A stretch of 64,000 nt of DNA. It comes from Snodgrassella alvi. GTDB taxonomy: Bacteria; Pseudomonadota; Gammaproteobacteria; Burkholderiales; Neisseriaceae. Positions 47,017 through 54,291 of the stretch are shown in pieces (position 1 is the stretch's first letter; every line of letters starts with the position of its first letter). The translations under genes and the position numbers were made by a program. The notes under the pieces are model-generated. The model ran no database searches and had not been told where the DNA came from. It saw nothing but the letters and a program-made list of their open reading frames with translations. The stretch spans positions 620,001-684,000 of the forward strand of contig NZ_CP160328.2 in NCBI RefSeq assembly GCF_040741455.2. The letters are read 5' to 3'.

Positions 47017-49959
47017 TCAAAGTTTACGGGCAACCTCAACCACTTCAAATGCTTCCAGCTGATCACCTTCCATAATGTCATTATAGTTTTTCAGCATCAA
47101 ACCACATTCAAAGCCCTGCCGTACTTCTTTAACGTCGTCTTTGAAACGTTTCAATGAAGCCAGTTCGCCAGTATGAACAACCACATTATTACGAATCAAG
47201 CGTACATGCGAGTCGCGCTTAATTAAACCATCCGTAACCATACAACCAGCAATATTGCCTACCTTAGATACCGTAATAACCTGACGGATTTCTACCGTAC
47301 CGATTACATTTTCTTTCTGCTCAGGTGCCAACATGCCACTCAAAGCAGCTTTCACATCATCAATAGCATCATAGATAATGTTGTAATAGCGGATTTCAAT
47401 ACCTTCATGCTCAGCCAGCTTGCGTGCAGTAGCATCAGCACGGACATTAAAGCCAATAATCACAGCACCGGATGCAATCGCCAAATTAACATCAGATTCG
47501 CTTACACCACCTACACCACTATGCAATACATCTACACGTACTTCATCAGTAGATAGTTTACGCAAGCTTCCAGCCAAAGCCTCATACGAACCCTGTACAT
47601 CGGCTTTAATGATAATCGGCAGACTTTGTGCCTGATTTTCACCCATGTTATTAAACATGTTTTCCAGTTTGGCTGCCTGTTGCTTGGCTAAGCGTACATC
47701 GCGGTATTTACCCTGACGGAACAATGCAATTTCGCGAGCTCTTTTCTCATCTGCCAGTACGATGAAATCTTCACCTGCATTAGGCACATCAGATAATCCC
47801 AGAATTTCAACTGGAATGGATGGGCCGGCAGCAGCAATAGTTTTGCCATTCTCATCCACCATAGCACGTACACGACCGAAAGTTGTACCGGCCAGCACCA
47901 CATCGCCTTTGTGCAGAGTACCACTTTGTACCAGCAAAGTTGCCACAGCACCACGACCTTTATCCAGCCGTGATTCAACAACAATACCTTTAGCAGCAGC
48001 ATCAACCGGTGCTTTCAGTTCCAGCACATCCGCTTCGAGTAGTACTGCTTCCAGTAAAGCGTCAATATTCGTACCCTGCTTGGCAGAAACATCGATGAAC
48101 TGTACATCACCACCCCATGAATCCGGTACCACCTCATGTGCCGTTAGTTCTTGGCGAATACGTTCCGGATTAGCGCCTTCTTTATCAATCTTGTTTACAG
48201 CCACAACCAAAGGTACTTTGGCTGCTTTAGCATGAGCAATCGCTTCTATCGTCTGCGGCATTACACCGTCATCGGCAGCCACAACTAGAATAACAATATC
48301 AGTAGCCTGAGCACCACGAGCACGCATAGCCGTAAATGCTTCATGCCCCGGAGTATCCAAGAAGGTAATCACACCACGAGGCGTTTCAACATGATATGCA
48401 CCGATGTGCTGAGTAATACCACCGGCCTCACCCTGTACCACACGGGCACGGCGAATATAATCCAATAAAGAAGTTTTACCATGGTCTACGTGACCCATTA
48501 CTGTCACCACCGGTGGACGTGGCAATGCTTCAGCTTCAGTAACAGTCGTATCCTCATCCAGAAATGCTTCAGGATCATCTGCTGCCGCAGCCTTACCGAT
48601 ATGACCCATTTCTTCTACCACAATCAGGGCGGTCTCCTGATCCAATGACTGATTAATGGTCACCATCATACCCATCTTCATCAGGGTCTTAATCACTTCA
48701 GCTGCTTTAACGGCCATTTTATGAGCCAGCTCCGCCGCCGTGATGGTTTCCGGTACCAGCACTTCATGTACTACCGGTTCTGTAGGTGCTTGGAATGCAT
48801 GCTGATTCGGCTCTAGTTTAAGCTGTTTCTTACCACCTTTTTTACCACCACGTCTACGGCTGTCTTCGCCATTACCCATATCTGTTCCGCGACGGTTTTT
48901 ACCTCCGCGAGCAGATTTATTTTTAGGCATATCATCTTCACGCTGATGACGTTGCTCATCTTTTTTGCGCCGTGAACCTGAATCAGTCCCGCTATCCGCA
49001 GCTTTGACAGAAGCACTGCTAACCGATTTCTTCTCAGTCGGTTTGGCTGAACGTACTTCTGCAGATTTCTGCTCGCTGGCGGCTTTACTTTGTTCCATAG
49101 CTTGTTGCTTGGCCGCTTCTCGGCGCGCCTGACGCTCTTGCTTCTGTTTCAGCAGCATTTCACGCTGTTCTCGTAAAGCCTCTGCTCGACGTGCTTCTTC
49201 ATCGCGTTGAGCTTGCTCTTCCGGACTAATAATCGGTTTGGCTGCTTCGGCCACCAAAGCAGCCAAATCCACTTTCTTCGCATTATTACGATTACGATTG
49301 CGTTTGGATTTGTGCTGCTCATTTTTATCTGCTGCTTTTTTATCAGCAGAAACTTCTGCCTTAGGAGCTACCACTTCAACCTGCTGTTGTTTAACTTCTT
49401 GTTGTTTCACTTCCTGTTGTTTCACTTCCTGTTTTACCACTTCTGTCTGCACAGCCTCCGCTTTAGGTTTTTGTTCGGTTTTACTGGCCGTGGCTGCTGC
49501 TTTCAAACGCGCCGCCTCTGCAGCTGCGGCAGCAGCAGATTCTTCTCTGCGTTTTGCTTCAGCCTGCTCTTCAGCGGCTTTTTTCGCCTGTAGCTCAGCT
49601 TCAGTATCTACCTTAACTGGTTCTGTTTCATGTTTAACAGGTGCCTGCTTTTCTTCAGACAAACTGACCTGCTGTTCTTCAGGTGGCACTACAATGCGGC
49701 GGCGACGACGGGTTTCAACCTGTACCCCACCTACCGTACTCTTTTCGGCCTGCTTCTTACGATTCAGTGTGATGGTACTGGCAGACTGACTACCATTAGA
49801 CTGCTTTAAATAAACCAGCAATTGTTTCTTATCTTCAGCAGTCAGTTTATCTGACGCTGTCTGTTTATGTACTCCTGCTTCGGCCAGCTGTGTCAACAGT
49901 CTAGTAGTAGACATATGTAGCTCCGAGGCAAATTGTTCTACAGTTATTTGATTACTCAT
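47017..49959 (-). CDS. infB: translation initiation factor IF-2
   Basis: IF-2 is the GTPase that brings fMet-tRNA to the 30S subunit and promotes subunit joining. The 980-aa protein has an N-terminal IF2-N domain ([16 protein letters not shown]), a long charged low-complexity region (about 80-390) with a QQEVK tandem repeat, a second IF2-N domain, and the G domain (GHVDHGKT near residue 487, [15 protein letters not shown]) followed by domains II-IV. The ATG at 49959 has GAGGG seven bases upstream; one at 49983 lies in the nusA end. It begins ten bases after nusA. Confidence 0.96.
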
Positions 49960-49969
49960 TCGCGTACCC

Positions 49970-51457
49970 TCATACTTCGTCAAACCAGTGGGCGCGTGCA
50001 GCCATCACCACTTTCTTGGCGGTTTCCTCATCAATGCCAGTAATTTCAATCAGTTCGTCAACTGATAGCTCAGCCAGATCATCACGGGTTTTAATTCCCT
50101 CATTAGCCAAATCATGCAGCATCTCCTGATCGACACCCTCAAGATTTTTCAGGTCTTCATCCATGCGTTCCAGCTGCTCTTCAGAGGCAATGGCCAGAGT
50201 CAGAATCGCATCACGAGCACGGTTACGCAACTCTTCAACTGTACTTTCATCAAAACCTTCAATTTCCAGCATTTCCTGAACAGGCACGTAAGCCACTTCT
50301 TCCAGACTAGTAAATCCTTCTTGAACTAGTACTTCGGCCACATTTTCATCAACACCAAGATTGTTTATAAAGAGTTCACGTATAGCCTTATCTTCAGCTT
50401 CGTGGCGTTCCTGCGCCTCTTCCACAGTCATAATATTCAATTGCCAGCCAGTCAGTTCTGCGGCAAGGCGTACATTTTGACCACCACGACCAATCGCCAG
50501 TGCCAACTGGTCTTCAGCCACAATCACATCTACAGAATGGTGATCTTCATCAATCAGAATGCGCGTAACCTCAGCCGGACTTAATGCATTAATCACAAAT
50601 TGAGCGGTTTCAGGTGACCACAACACCACATCTATACGTTCACCAGCCAGCTCCTCAGTAACCGCATTCACACGAGAACCACGAACACCGATACAGGTGC
50701 CTTGCGGATCAATGCGGGCATCATTTGATTTCACCGCTATTTTGGCGCGTAAGCCAGGATCACGAGTGACTTCTTTAATTTCTAGCAGACCGTCCTCAAT
50801 TTCGGGCACTTCCATTTCAAACAGTTTCAGCAAAAATTCACGTGAAATACGCGTCAGGATAACCTGATTGCGATTGCCGATCTGGTCGACACGTAAAAAC
50901 AGAGCTCTTACACGGTCTCCATTTCGAAAATTTTCCCGAGGAATCATCTGATCACGCGGCAGCAATGCTTCCAATCGTCCGATTTCCACAATAGCACCAT
51001 GCCGTTCCATACGTTTAATCGTACCAAGAACCAGATTATCTTTGCGTTGTAAGAATTCATTTAAAATCTGTTCGCGTTCTGCATCACGAATGCGCTGCAG
51101 AATAACCTGCTTAGCGGTCTGGGCACCAATCCGGCCAAATTCAACATTCTCAATTGGCTCTTCATAATATTCACCAATTTGGAGCGTTGTATCCGGAATT
51201 TCTTCCTGTATTTCTTCAATTGTTTTCTGAATATCCGGATACGTATAATCCTCATCTGCCACAATCAGCCAGCGGCGAAAACTGCGGTAATCGCCAGTAT
51301 TGCGATCAATCACTACCCGCACATCCATATTTTCACGCTCGGTTTTTTTCTTAGCTGCACTGGCCAGAGCAAACTCCAGTGCACTAAATACTACTTCTGT
51401 ATCAACGTTTTTCTCACTTGCCAAAGCTTCGGCCAGTAGTAAAATTTCACGACTCAT
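49970..51457 (-). CDS. nusA: transcription termination/antitermination factor NusA
   Basis: NusA binds RNA polymerase and RNA and affects pausing, termination and antitermination. The 495-aa protein has the N-terminal polymerase-binding domain (1-130), the S1 domain (about 135-200, [19 protein letters not shown]), two KH domains (about 230-345, with [20 protein letters not shown] and [18 protein letters not shown]) and two acidic C-terminal repeats ([36 protein letters not shown]), as in E. coli. AAGGAG is well placed before the ATG. It lies between rimP and infB. Confidence 0.97.
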
Positions 51458-51504: not shown

Positions 51505-51987
51505 TTAAAAATCAAACTCTGGCTTTAAACGTGCTTTGTCAACATTCTGCCATTCAATACATACCGTTTTACCGGCTGCAACCGCTGCACGTTTGGCCCT
51601 GCGTATCTCATTCGCCTCTTCCAGCGTAATACTAATCAAACCATTATCATCAATACCATTGATGCGACCGATAAAATTTTTCTGGCCATCAATCGGCAAA
51701 CGGGTTTTAATCTTAGCCAGTTGTCCTGCAAAACGTGCAAAATCAGCAGGCTTAGTCAGCGGACGATCCAAACCAGGACTGGAAATTTCCAGACGCTGAT
51801 AATCAACATCTTCCACCGCCAATACACGACTTAAGTGGTTGCTAATAGCTACACAATCATCCAGAGAAATGCCGCCTTCAGCTTTATCAATAAAGACCCG
51901 TAAATCTCCTTGCGAAGTCAGCTCATAATTCACCAACTCATAGCCCAGACCTGGCAAAGTTTTTTCCAAAATGCCCTGAATATCCAT
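51505..51987 (-). CDS. rimP: ribosome maturation factor RimP
   Basis: RimP assists late 30S subunit assembly. The 160-aa protein starts [19 protein letters not shown] with GGAG upstream; the open frame extends to 52026 through a terminator hairpin and is not coding there. It has the N-terminal alpha/beta domain ([32 protein letters not shown]) and the SH3-like C-terminal domain ([16 protein letters not shown]). First gene of the rimP-nusA-infB-rbfA operon. Confidence 0.95.
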
Positions 51988-52008
51988 CTGTGCTCCGTAA
52001 AAACAAAA

Positions 52009-52028
52009 AAATGGCCTCAGGGCCATTT
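52009..52028 (-). terminator. leader terminator in front of rimP
   Basis: On the minus strand AAATGGCC-CTGA-GGCCATTT is followed at once by a run of Ts (TTTTTGTTTTT) and then ACGGAGCACAG and the rimP ATG. No minus-strand gene lies upstream, so this intrinsic terminator is in the 5' leader of the rimP-nusA-infB operon and is a probable attenuator. Confidence 0.8.
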
Positions 52029-52106
52029 CTCAATAATTCGAAAAATTTCTTTATTTTAACTCATTGTTGAAAAAAAAGAAACCACCTGCCATTATTTTGA
52101 TTGCCC

Positions 52107-52135
52107 ATATAATGCGATAAAACTAGACATATCAA
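52107..52135 (-). promoter_or_regulatory. promoter of the rimP-nusA-infB operon
   Basis: On the minus strand TTGATA (52135-52130), 17 bases, TTATAT (52112-52107). Transcription from here would run about 110 bases, through the leader terminator, to rimP. Confidence 0.5.
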
Positions 52136-52379: not shown

Positions 52380-52419
52380 AAACTGCTCCCCCTGTTAAAC
52401 ACATCAATAGGGTAAATAA

Positions 52420-54291
52420 ATGCGTATACAGTTTTCTGCCAATACGACAATGACACTTGCAGCATTGGGTATTGTCTACGGCGATATTGGCACCAGCCCT
52501 CTGTATGCCTTAAAAGAAAGCTTTCGCGCATCTTCCTTAGCGCCCATTGAAGCAAATATATTAGGTTTTGTTTCTCTTATTCTCTGGTCATTGCTGCTAA
52601 TAGTCACCTTGAAATATGTACTTTTTATTTTGCGAGCTGACAACAATGGTGAAGGTGGAGTGGTAGTCCTTATGCAACAGGCTATGCGGCATCTAAAAGG
52701 GAAACCAGTCTGGATTGCCATGATGATGGGGCTTACCGGCACAGCATTATTTTACGGCGATGCCATGATTACGCCTGCTGTTTCTGTACTTTCTGCTGCT
52801 GAAGGCCTGACCGTCATCAATGAAAGCTTTCGGCCGTACGTAATGCCGATAGCACTGGCAATTCTATTCGGATTATTTCTGATACAAAAAAAGGGCACTC
52901 ATAAAATCGGCAAATTGTTTGGCCCTGTTATGCTTGTTTGGTTTAGTGCCATCGGCTTGATAGGTCTCTATCAGATAGTACAGGCACCAAGAGTAATATT
53001 GGCATTCAATCCCTACTATGGCATCAAATTTGCCATTGATCATGGCTGGGATGGCTTTATCGGATTGGGTTGTGTTGTATTAGCTGTAACTGGTGCTGAA
53101 GCTTTATATGCCGACATGGGGCATTTTGGTCGCCAGCCCATTCAAACAGCATGGATTAAAATAGTGTTGCCAAGCCTGATAGTCAATTACCTGGGACAGG
53201 GAGCATTGATTATGCATAACCCAACGGCAATTAACAATCCTTTCTATTTGAGTGCTCCACACTGGTTATTAATCCCATTAATCATACTTGCTACCTTCGC
53301 AACCATTATTGCCAGTCAAGCTGTTATAGCTGGTGCCTATTCTCTCACTCGTCAGGCCATTCAGCTTGGATTCGCACCACGCATGAACATCATCCATACC
53401 AATAATGAAGAAATTGGTCAGATATATCTGCCATTAGTCAACTGGTTATTACTAACCGCCGTTACCTTAGTAGTGTTGGCTTTTCACGATTCTGAACATT
53501 TAGCCTCAGCCTACGGCATCGCCGTTACCGGAACCATGGTCATTACCTCATGCCTGTTTTGTGTTGTCATGATTAAAAACTGGCACTGGCCTATACCCAT
53601 TGCAGTAATGCTTACCTTATTGTTCCTTTGCTTTGATCTGGTTTTTTTCAGCAGCAATCTATTGAAACTTATTCATGGAGGCTGGTTTCCCGTAATGGTA
53701 GCTTTGATTGTCGTTACTCTTTTTTCAACCTGGCGCCGTGGACAATGGCAATTGCATCAGGCACAGCAGAGCAAAGAATTTTCACTTGATAACTTTGTCG
53801 AAAATCTACATGACTACCCACCACAGATAGTTACAGGTAATGCCGTATTTATGGTATCAGATCCATTCAGCGTACCTCGCGCATTACTTCATAACCTTAA
53901 ACATAATAAAGTCTTACATAGCTACAATGTCTTACTCAGTATCAAAACCAAAGAAATACCTTATATCGCCGATAATGAACGCATTGCCATGAAGCAAATA
54001 GGGCCACGTTTTACCCGCGTAATTGCAAATTACGGATTTCAGGAAACCGCCAACATTAGCCACATTCTGTCATTGATGGACGAACAAGGCATCACACTTG
54101 ATACCATGGATACATCGTTTTTTCTTTCTCATGACAGCATCGTCGTAGCTGCTCGAACCAAACATGGCAATATGGGACGCTTACGCGCCCGCATATTTAA
54201 ATGGCTATATAAAAACAGCGCAACAGCTACAAACTACTACCATATCCCTGCTAACCGTGTAGTCGAACTGGGCGCTCAAGTAGTCATTTAA
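52420..54291 (+). CDS. kup: low-affinity potassium uptake protein Kup
   Basis: Kup is a proton-coupled potassium transporter of the inner membrane. The 623-aa protein has the family start LAALGIVYGDIGTSPLYALKE, twelve hydrophobic segments over residues 10-440, the GDAMITPAVSVLSAAEGL helix and the DMGHFGRQPIQTAW segment, then a cytoplasmic C-terminal domain (about 450-623, FMVSDPFSVPRALLHNLKHN). Length is normal. The ribosome binding site (AGGGTAAATAA) is moderate. The upstream spacer is shared with the divergent rimP operon. Confidence 0.95.
   Translation: MRIQFSANTTMTLAALGIVYGDIGTSPLYALKESFRASSLAPIEANILGFVSLILWSLLLIVTLKYVLFILRADNNGEGGVVVLMQQAMRHLKGKPVWIAMMMGLTGTALFYGDAMITPAVSVLSAAEGLTVINESFRPYVMPIALAILFGLFLIQKKGTHKIGKLFGPVMLVWFSAIGLIGLYQIVQAPRVILAFNPYYGIKFAIDHGWDGFIGLGCVVLAVTGAEALYADMGHFGRQPIQTAWIKIVLPSLIVNYLGQGALIMHNPTAINNPFYLSAPHWLLIPLIILATFATIIASQAVIAGAYSLTRQAIQLGFAPRMNIIHTNNEEIGQIYLPLVNWLLLTAVTLVVLAFHDSEHLASAYGIAVTGTMVITSCLFCVVMIKNWHWPIPIAVMLTLLFLCFDLVFFSSNLLKLIHGGWFPVMVALIVVTLFSTWRRGQWQLHQAQQSKEFSLDNFVENLHDYPPQIVTGNAVFMVSDPFSVPRALLHNLKHNKVLHSYNVLLSIKTKEIPYIADNERIAMKQIGPRFTRVIANYGFQETANISHILSLMDEQGITLDTMDTSFFLSHDSIVVAARTKHGNMGRLRARIFKWLYKNSATATNYYHIPANRVVELGAQVVI

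Follow-up and report, generated by a model that had tools for sequence, protein, structure and literature searches.

The leader of the rimP-nusA-infB operon of the bee-gut bacterium Snodgrassella alvi, within the 64,000-nucleotide window (the whole stretch of DNA analyzed here), is probably an attenuator of the rimP-leader type, in which termination stimulated by NusA would act as negative feedback on the operon. It contains a terminator hairpin, conserved with paired substitutions, between a conserved promoter and the rimP start codon; from sequence and published work we infer the start site, actual termination at the hairpin, and NusA as the sensor. The central idea has already been published, and what is new is mainly the correct position of the promoter and the family-specific details. 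The features concerned are:

52420–54291, plus strand: kup (K_trans), the divergent neighbor (Pfam)
52076–52081, minus strand: -35-like hexamer TTTCTT, opening a T-rich stretch (100% identical in 11 other genomes of the genus)
52053–52058, minus strand: -10 hexamer TAAAAT of the most likely rimP-nusA-infB promoter (100% identical in the genus)
52040–52046, minus strand: predicted transcript start ATTTTTC, with the start A at 52046
52006–52031, minus strand: predicted intrinsic terminator hairpin of rimP-leader type, GAGAAATGGCC-CTGA-GGCCATTTTTT (sequence, folding, conservation, shuffles)
51999–52011, minus strand: U tract TTTTTTTGTTTTT, overlapping the stem foot (sequence; T run conserved in Neisseriaceae)
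51993–51996, minus strand: rimP Shine-Dalgarno sequence GGAG, 5 nt before the ATG (sequence)
51505–51987, minus strand: rimP, ribosome maturation factor, first gene of the operon (Pfam RimP_N and RimP C-terminal domains)
49970–51457, minus strand: nusA, the presumed feedback regulator (Pfam NusA_N, S1, and KH domains)
47017–49983, minus strand: infB (IF2), whose listed ORF overlaps the end of nusA (Pfam IF-2, GTP_EFTU)

The terminator hairpin and its conservation

The leader stem, of 11 pairs with A-U and G-U among them, has a folding energy of -13.1 kcal/mol and is followed by a tail of the form T7-G-T5. Its core, AAATGGCC-N4-GGCCATTTTTT, has a single occurrence in the genome (2.29 Mb). When the 160 bases upstream of rimP were shuffled 2000 times with dinucleotides preserved, a comparable terminator arose just twice. 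The hairpin and T run described in an earlier note on this DNA are borne out (52031–51999, minus strand), as is its statement that the run ends at the rimP Shine-Dalgarno sequence (GGAG at 51996–51993, ATG at 51987). From the end of the stem to the ATG is 18 nt, inside the 4–130 nt criterion of the general rimP-leader. Terminator-like hairpins also follow infB (-24.8 kcal/mol) and rbfA (-16.8 kcal/mol; RbfA was likewise confirmed by Pfam); the leader hairpin is weaker than either, in keeping with a regulatory terminator. It is the only terminator-like site on the minus strand between kup and rimP, where a second, upstream terminator with an antiterminator was not found.

Two other features of the region may be mentioned. 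An ATG at 52026 (minus strand), within the terminator stem and in frame with rimP, would add 13 residues to the protein, but is probably unused: it was rejected as the rimP start because the ATG at 51987 has a Shine-Dalgarno sequence and the open frame varies between species. Between infB and rbfA (47001–46967, minus strand) there is a 15-pair hairpin with a poor T tail, matching in position an internal terminator, t3, reported upstream of rbfA in E. coli.

RimP was located in 58 of 61 relatives and in all 80 of 80 Neisseriaceae genomes, and the sequence upstream was read. Of 98 regions upstream of rimP, 88 contained a terminator with at least eight pairs and a T-rich tail, versus 6 of 1960 shuffles, and variant stems are visible in most of the regions failing this search; a looser search for a six-pair core gave 99 of 100, a few of them imperfect or doubtful (e.g., genera g24 and g25). 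Within the family, nearly all of the 79 sampled Neisseriaceae genomes have the terminator. Snodgrassella and Neisseria have the core ATGGCC..GGCCAT, two genera have ATGACC..GGTCAT, and three Neisseriaceae genera (g5, g6, g9) share ATGGGC..GCCCAT with most other sampled families of the order. Both arms change together: at stem pair 5, 9 genera have C-G and 22 have G-C, and at pair 4 two genera have A-T in place of G-C, these figures being counts of genera rather than of independent events on a tree. Judged from sequence, the hairpin is a real and strongly conserved terminator.

A search of public genomes gave at least 80 loci with the GGCC stem. Among the matches listed, the leader stands upstream of rimP in Snodgrassella alvi, Snodgrassella communis, other Neisseriaceae, and Neisseria; all those adjoining rimP were Neisseriaceae, so that an association of this stem with rimP outside the family was rejected for the matches listed, none being found there, and those not adjoining rimP were unrelated terminators. 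One leader (L013; genome G014, genus g3) appears to have a double terminator, with a tandem second hairpin, GAGAAGCGGC-AGCAAT-GCCGTTTTT, upstream of rimP just before the GGCC hairpin.

Promoter and predicted transcript start

The promoter proposed in the earlier note (52135–52107; TTGATA-17-TTATAT) is probably wrong. Although its -35 is 86% identical in the genus, its -10 is only 47% identical, and for lack of -10 conservation it was rejected as the main promoter. TTTCTT and TAAAAT, separated by a 17-bp spacer, are identical in all 11 other genomes compared, suggesting that the operative promoter lies 50–55 bp nearer the gene and that TTTCTT-17-TAAAAT is most likely the main promoter of rimP-nusA-infB. 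A stretch comparable to that opened by TTTCTT, CTTTTCTTTT, occurs in Neisseria leaders. Strong conservation begins at this promoter: the block from promoter to start codon is 91–100% conserved in the genus (97% for the hairpin, 91–97% for the hairpin plus the stretch up to the start codon), whereas most of the intergenic DNA above has diverged, with most of the stretch between about 52320 and 52141 at 28–46% identity in the same 11 genomes. An exception is a block at 52380–52321 (GCCAATCCCTTAAGACTGGG plus T-rich sequence), 69–74% identical in the genus, which is possibly control DNA of kup. Transcription would start near 52046, 7 nt after the -10; the predicted leader would then measure about 59 nt, and the RNA ending at the terminator about 42–48 nt.

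The gene directly upstream is kup on the plus strand; the earlier note was right that no minus-strand gene precedes the leader there, and its conclusion that the terminator can only regulate rimP-nusA-infB agrees with the anatomy, the deep conservation, and published work. Might the hairpin instead close a separate small RNA at its 3′ end, or act only on translation or stability, with no control of the operon by termination? The E. coli and Salmonella rimP leader RNA is among the small RNAs bound by ProQ (PMC5391140). Here, however, the conserved promoter reads directly into rimP. An RNA of about 45 nt would contain little beyond the terminator, and the hairpin does not take in the Shine-Dalgarno sequence; this reading seems highly improbable.

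The predicted start is directly followed by a T run that is itself a family feature. TATAAT, TAAAAT, TAGAAT, or TACAAT followed by a T run was present in 75 of the 79 Neisseriaceae genomes, in each case as a purine, the run, and a C (five Ts in 71 genomes, four in 3, six in 1). Spacing from -10 to run is 7 nt in 53 genomes, 8 in 20, and 10 in 2, and across the family the distance from run to hairpin varies more than this. Elsewhere in the genome the combination shows no enrichment (15 sites vs. 18 in a reversed control), and it was therefore rejected as a general genome feature or promoter habit; no pyrimidine genes stood out downstream of the genomic sites. In two leaders (L038 and L042) the hairpin core comes only about 7–8 nt after the -10, and the transcript would open directly with the terminator hairpin.

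One speculative role for the run is an antiterminator, the 5′ AUUUUUC pairing with GAGAAAU in the foot of the terminator stem. This 22-nt stretch can form a 9-pair hairpin of -4.1 kcal/mol, which folding predicts for a transcript still lacking the 3′ U residues of the terminator; the terminator, however, is much more stable once transcribed (-13.3 kcal/mol for the whole stretch), and its four G-C pairs are untouched by the alternative pairing. Both arms are nearly invariant, leaving no covariation to judge the pairing by, and it is the spacing to the -10, not that to the hairpin, which the run keeps. We regard an antiterminator here as very unlikely.

A further possibility, compatible with NusA feedback, is a second layer of control besides the terminator: UTP-sensitive slippage at a purine-TTTTT-C start, as in E. 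coli pyrBI and carAB. The sequence fits the criterion for starts of the pyrBI/carAB type (a purine and at least three Ts, about 7–8 bp from the -10) in 73 of 79 genomes, on a predicted start; these are 73 of the 75 genomes having the run, and its nearly constant spacing to the -10 and lack of genomic enrichment also speak for such a role. In E. coli, a run, purine start, and spacing of this sort allow stuttering; the carAB transcript there begins GUUUGC, and A starts and 8-bp spacing raise slippage (PMC6245113). The resemblance to UTP-sensitive promoters is speculative, and the added layer distinctly unlikely: NusA and IF2 offer no obvious pyrimidine logic, the run is absent from genus g9 and from nearly all other families of the order, and it might do no more than help the promoter to melt or the polymerase to escape.

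Relation to known rimP and nusA leaders

The rimP-leader was described by Naville & Gautheret (2010) as the most widespread attenuator in bacteria, 4–130 nt from the gene start, with NusA the preferred effector across bacteria (PMC2965389). The Snodgrassella leader resembles it in having a short hairpin and U tract just upstream of rimP, at a distance in that range, and no aptamer; it differs in its stem, which here, as usually in Neisseriaceae, is GGCC/GGCC instead of the conserved GGGc/gCCC, with one pair swapped on both sides. No Rfam family matched the leader at its gathering score, and high conservation starts only at the promoter, suggesting that there is no larger conserved aptamer upstream. 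The 3′ terminator hairpin of the gammaproteobacterial rimP leader, RF01770, does align here (match 52126–52005), but the match scores 17.4 bits (E 3.4) against a cut-off of 47, and the tandem upstream terminator/antiterminator is missing; membership was rejected on score. None of the 94 sampled genomes of the class reached 47 bits for RF01770, and other low-scoring matches in the leader, to snoRNA and microRNA models, were dismissed as chance. Being below this cut-off and without the exact GGGc..gCCC signature, the leader is best described as a Neisseriaceae variant that would work like the general rimP-leader and, from its position and pairing, is very probably its homolog.

In E. coli, terminators upstream of rimP (t1, t2 of the metY-nusA-infB leader) and NusA-dependent control of the operon have been reported (PMC6511841); the terminators, and the NusA autoregulation proposed here, are points of likeness, whereas the E. 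coli leader has the tRNA gene metY and several promoters upstream and no tRNA gene lies upstream of the rimP leader here. In B. subtilis, nusA is controlled by NusA-stimulated intrinsic termination in its own leader, as stated, with reference to Mondal 2016, in PMC12288461. This resembles the role proposed here; that leader is longer (about 180 nt; PMC2965389), and NusA dependence has been demonstrated there but is only proposed for Snodgrassella. In Streptococcus agalactiae the leader of the same operon (gbs0413–gbs0418) terminates 31 nt after the start (PMC4448216). It too is very short, a likeness in length, though its host is Gram-positive. The earlier note treated a compact form in which the terminator adjoins the start as unknown to it; both the general rimP-leader (PMC2965389) and the S. 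agalactiae case contradict this. The main text of a Neisseria gonorrhoeae transcriptome paper mentions neither nusA nor rimP.

Probable NusA feedback and its implications

The probable mode of action may be outlined as follows. Transcription would start near 52046, and some 42–48 nt into the transcript the moderately stable hairpin and U tract would halt a fraction of RNA polymerases, while the remainder would read through into rimP, nusA, and infB. NusA, the putative sensor, stimulates pausing and termination that depend on a hairpin, so that abundant NusA would lower read-through and scarce NusA would raise it: negative feedback without an aptamer. Such feedback, which the earlier note also held likely, is plausible, and agrees with the anatomy, the deep conservation, and published work on related leaders.

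As a counterpoint, the terminator could be constitutive, only setting a fixed low read-through, and the stem is without the exact GGGc..gCCC signature that is thought to be recognized by the regulator. More broadly, the leader might be a real attenuator answering to a signal other than NusA (NusG, RimP, a cold-shock protein, or transcription speed), or a fixed brake without feedback. The rimP-leader element has no visible aptamer, and in B. subtilis NusG, too, assists terminators whose A-U feet are weak (PMC8060035), a kind of foot that the leader stem has; NusA, however, is published as repressing this operon in both E. coli and B. subtilis, and we consider another signal or a fixed brake unlikely.

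Feedback by NusA remains the best explanation, and the Snodgrassella leader would be a clean and very short natural case of it (a predicted 59 nt), in a family that includes Neisseria. The swap from GGGC/GCCC to GGCC/GGCC between genera amounts to a ready-made experiment: does NusA read the sequence of the stem, or just the shape it takes? The T-run start offers a further point for testing. It is a long shot that the Neisseriaceae operon passes two serial checkpoints in its first 50 nt, UTP-sensitive slippage and then a NusA-stimulated terminator; if true, the production of a core transcription factor and of IF2 would be linked to nucleotide supply as well as to the level of NusA.
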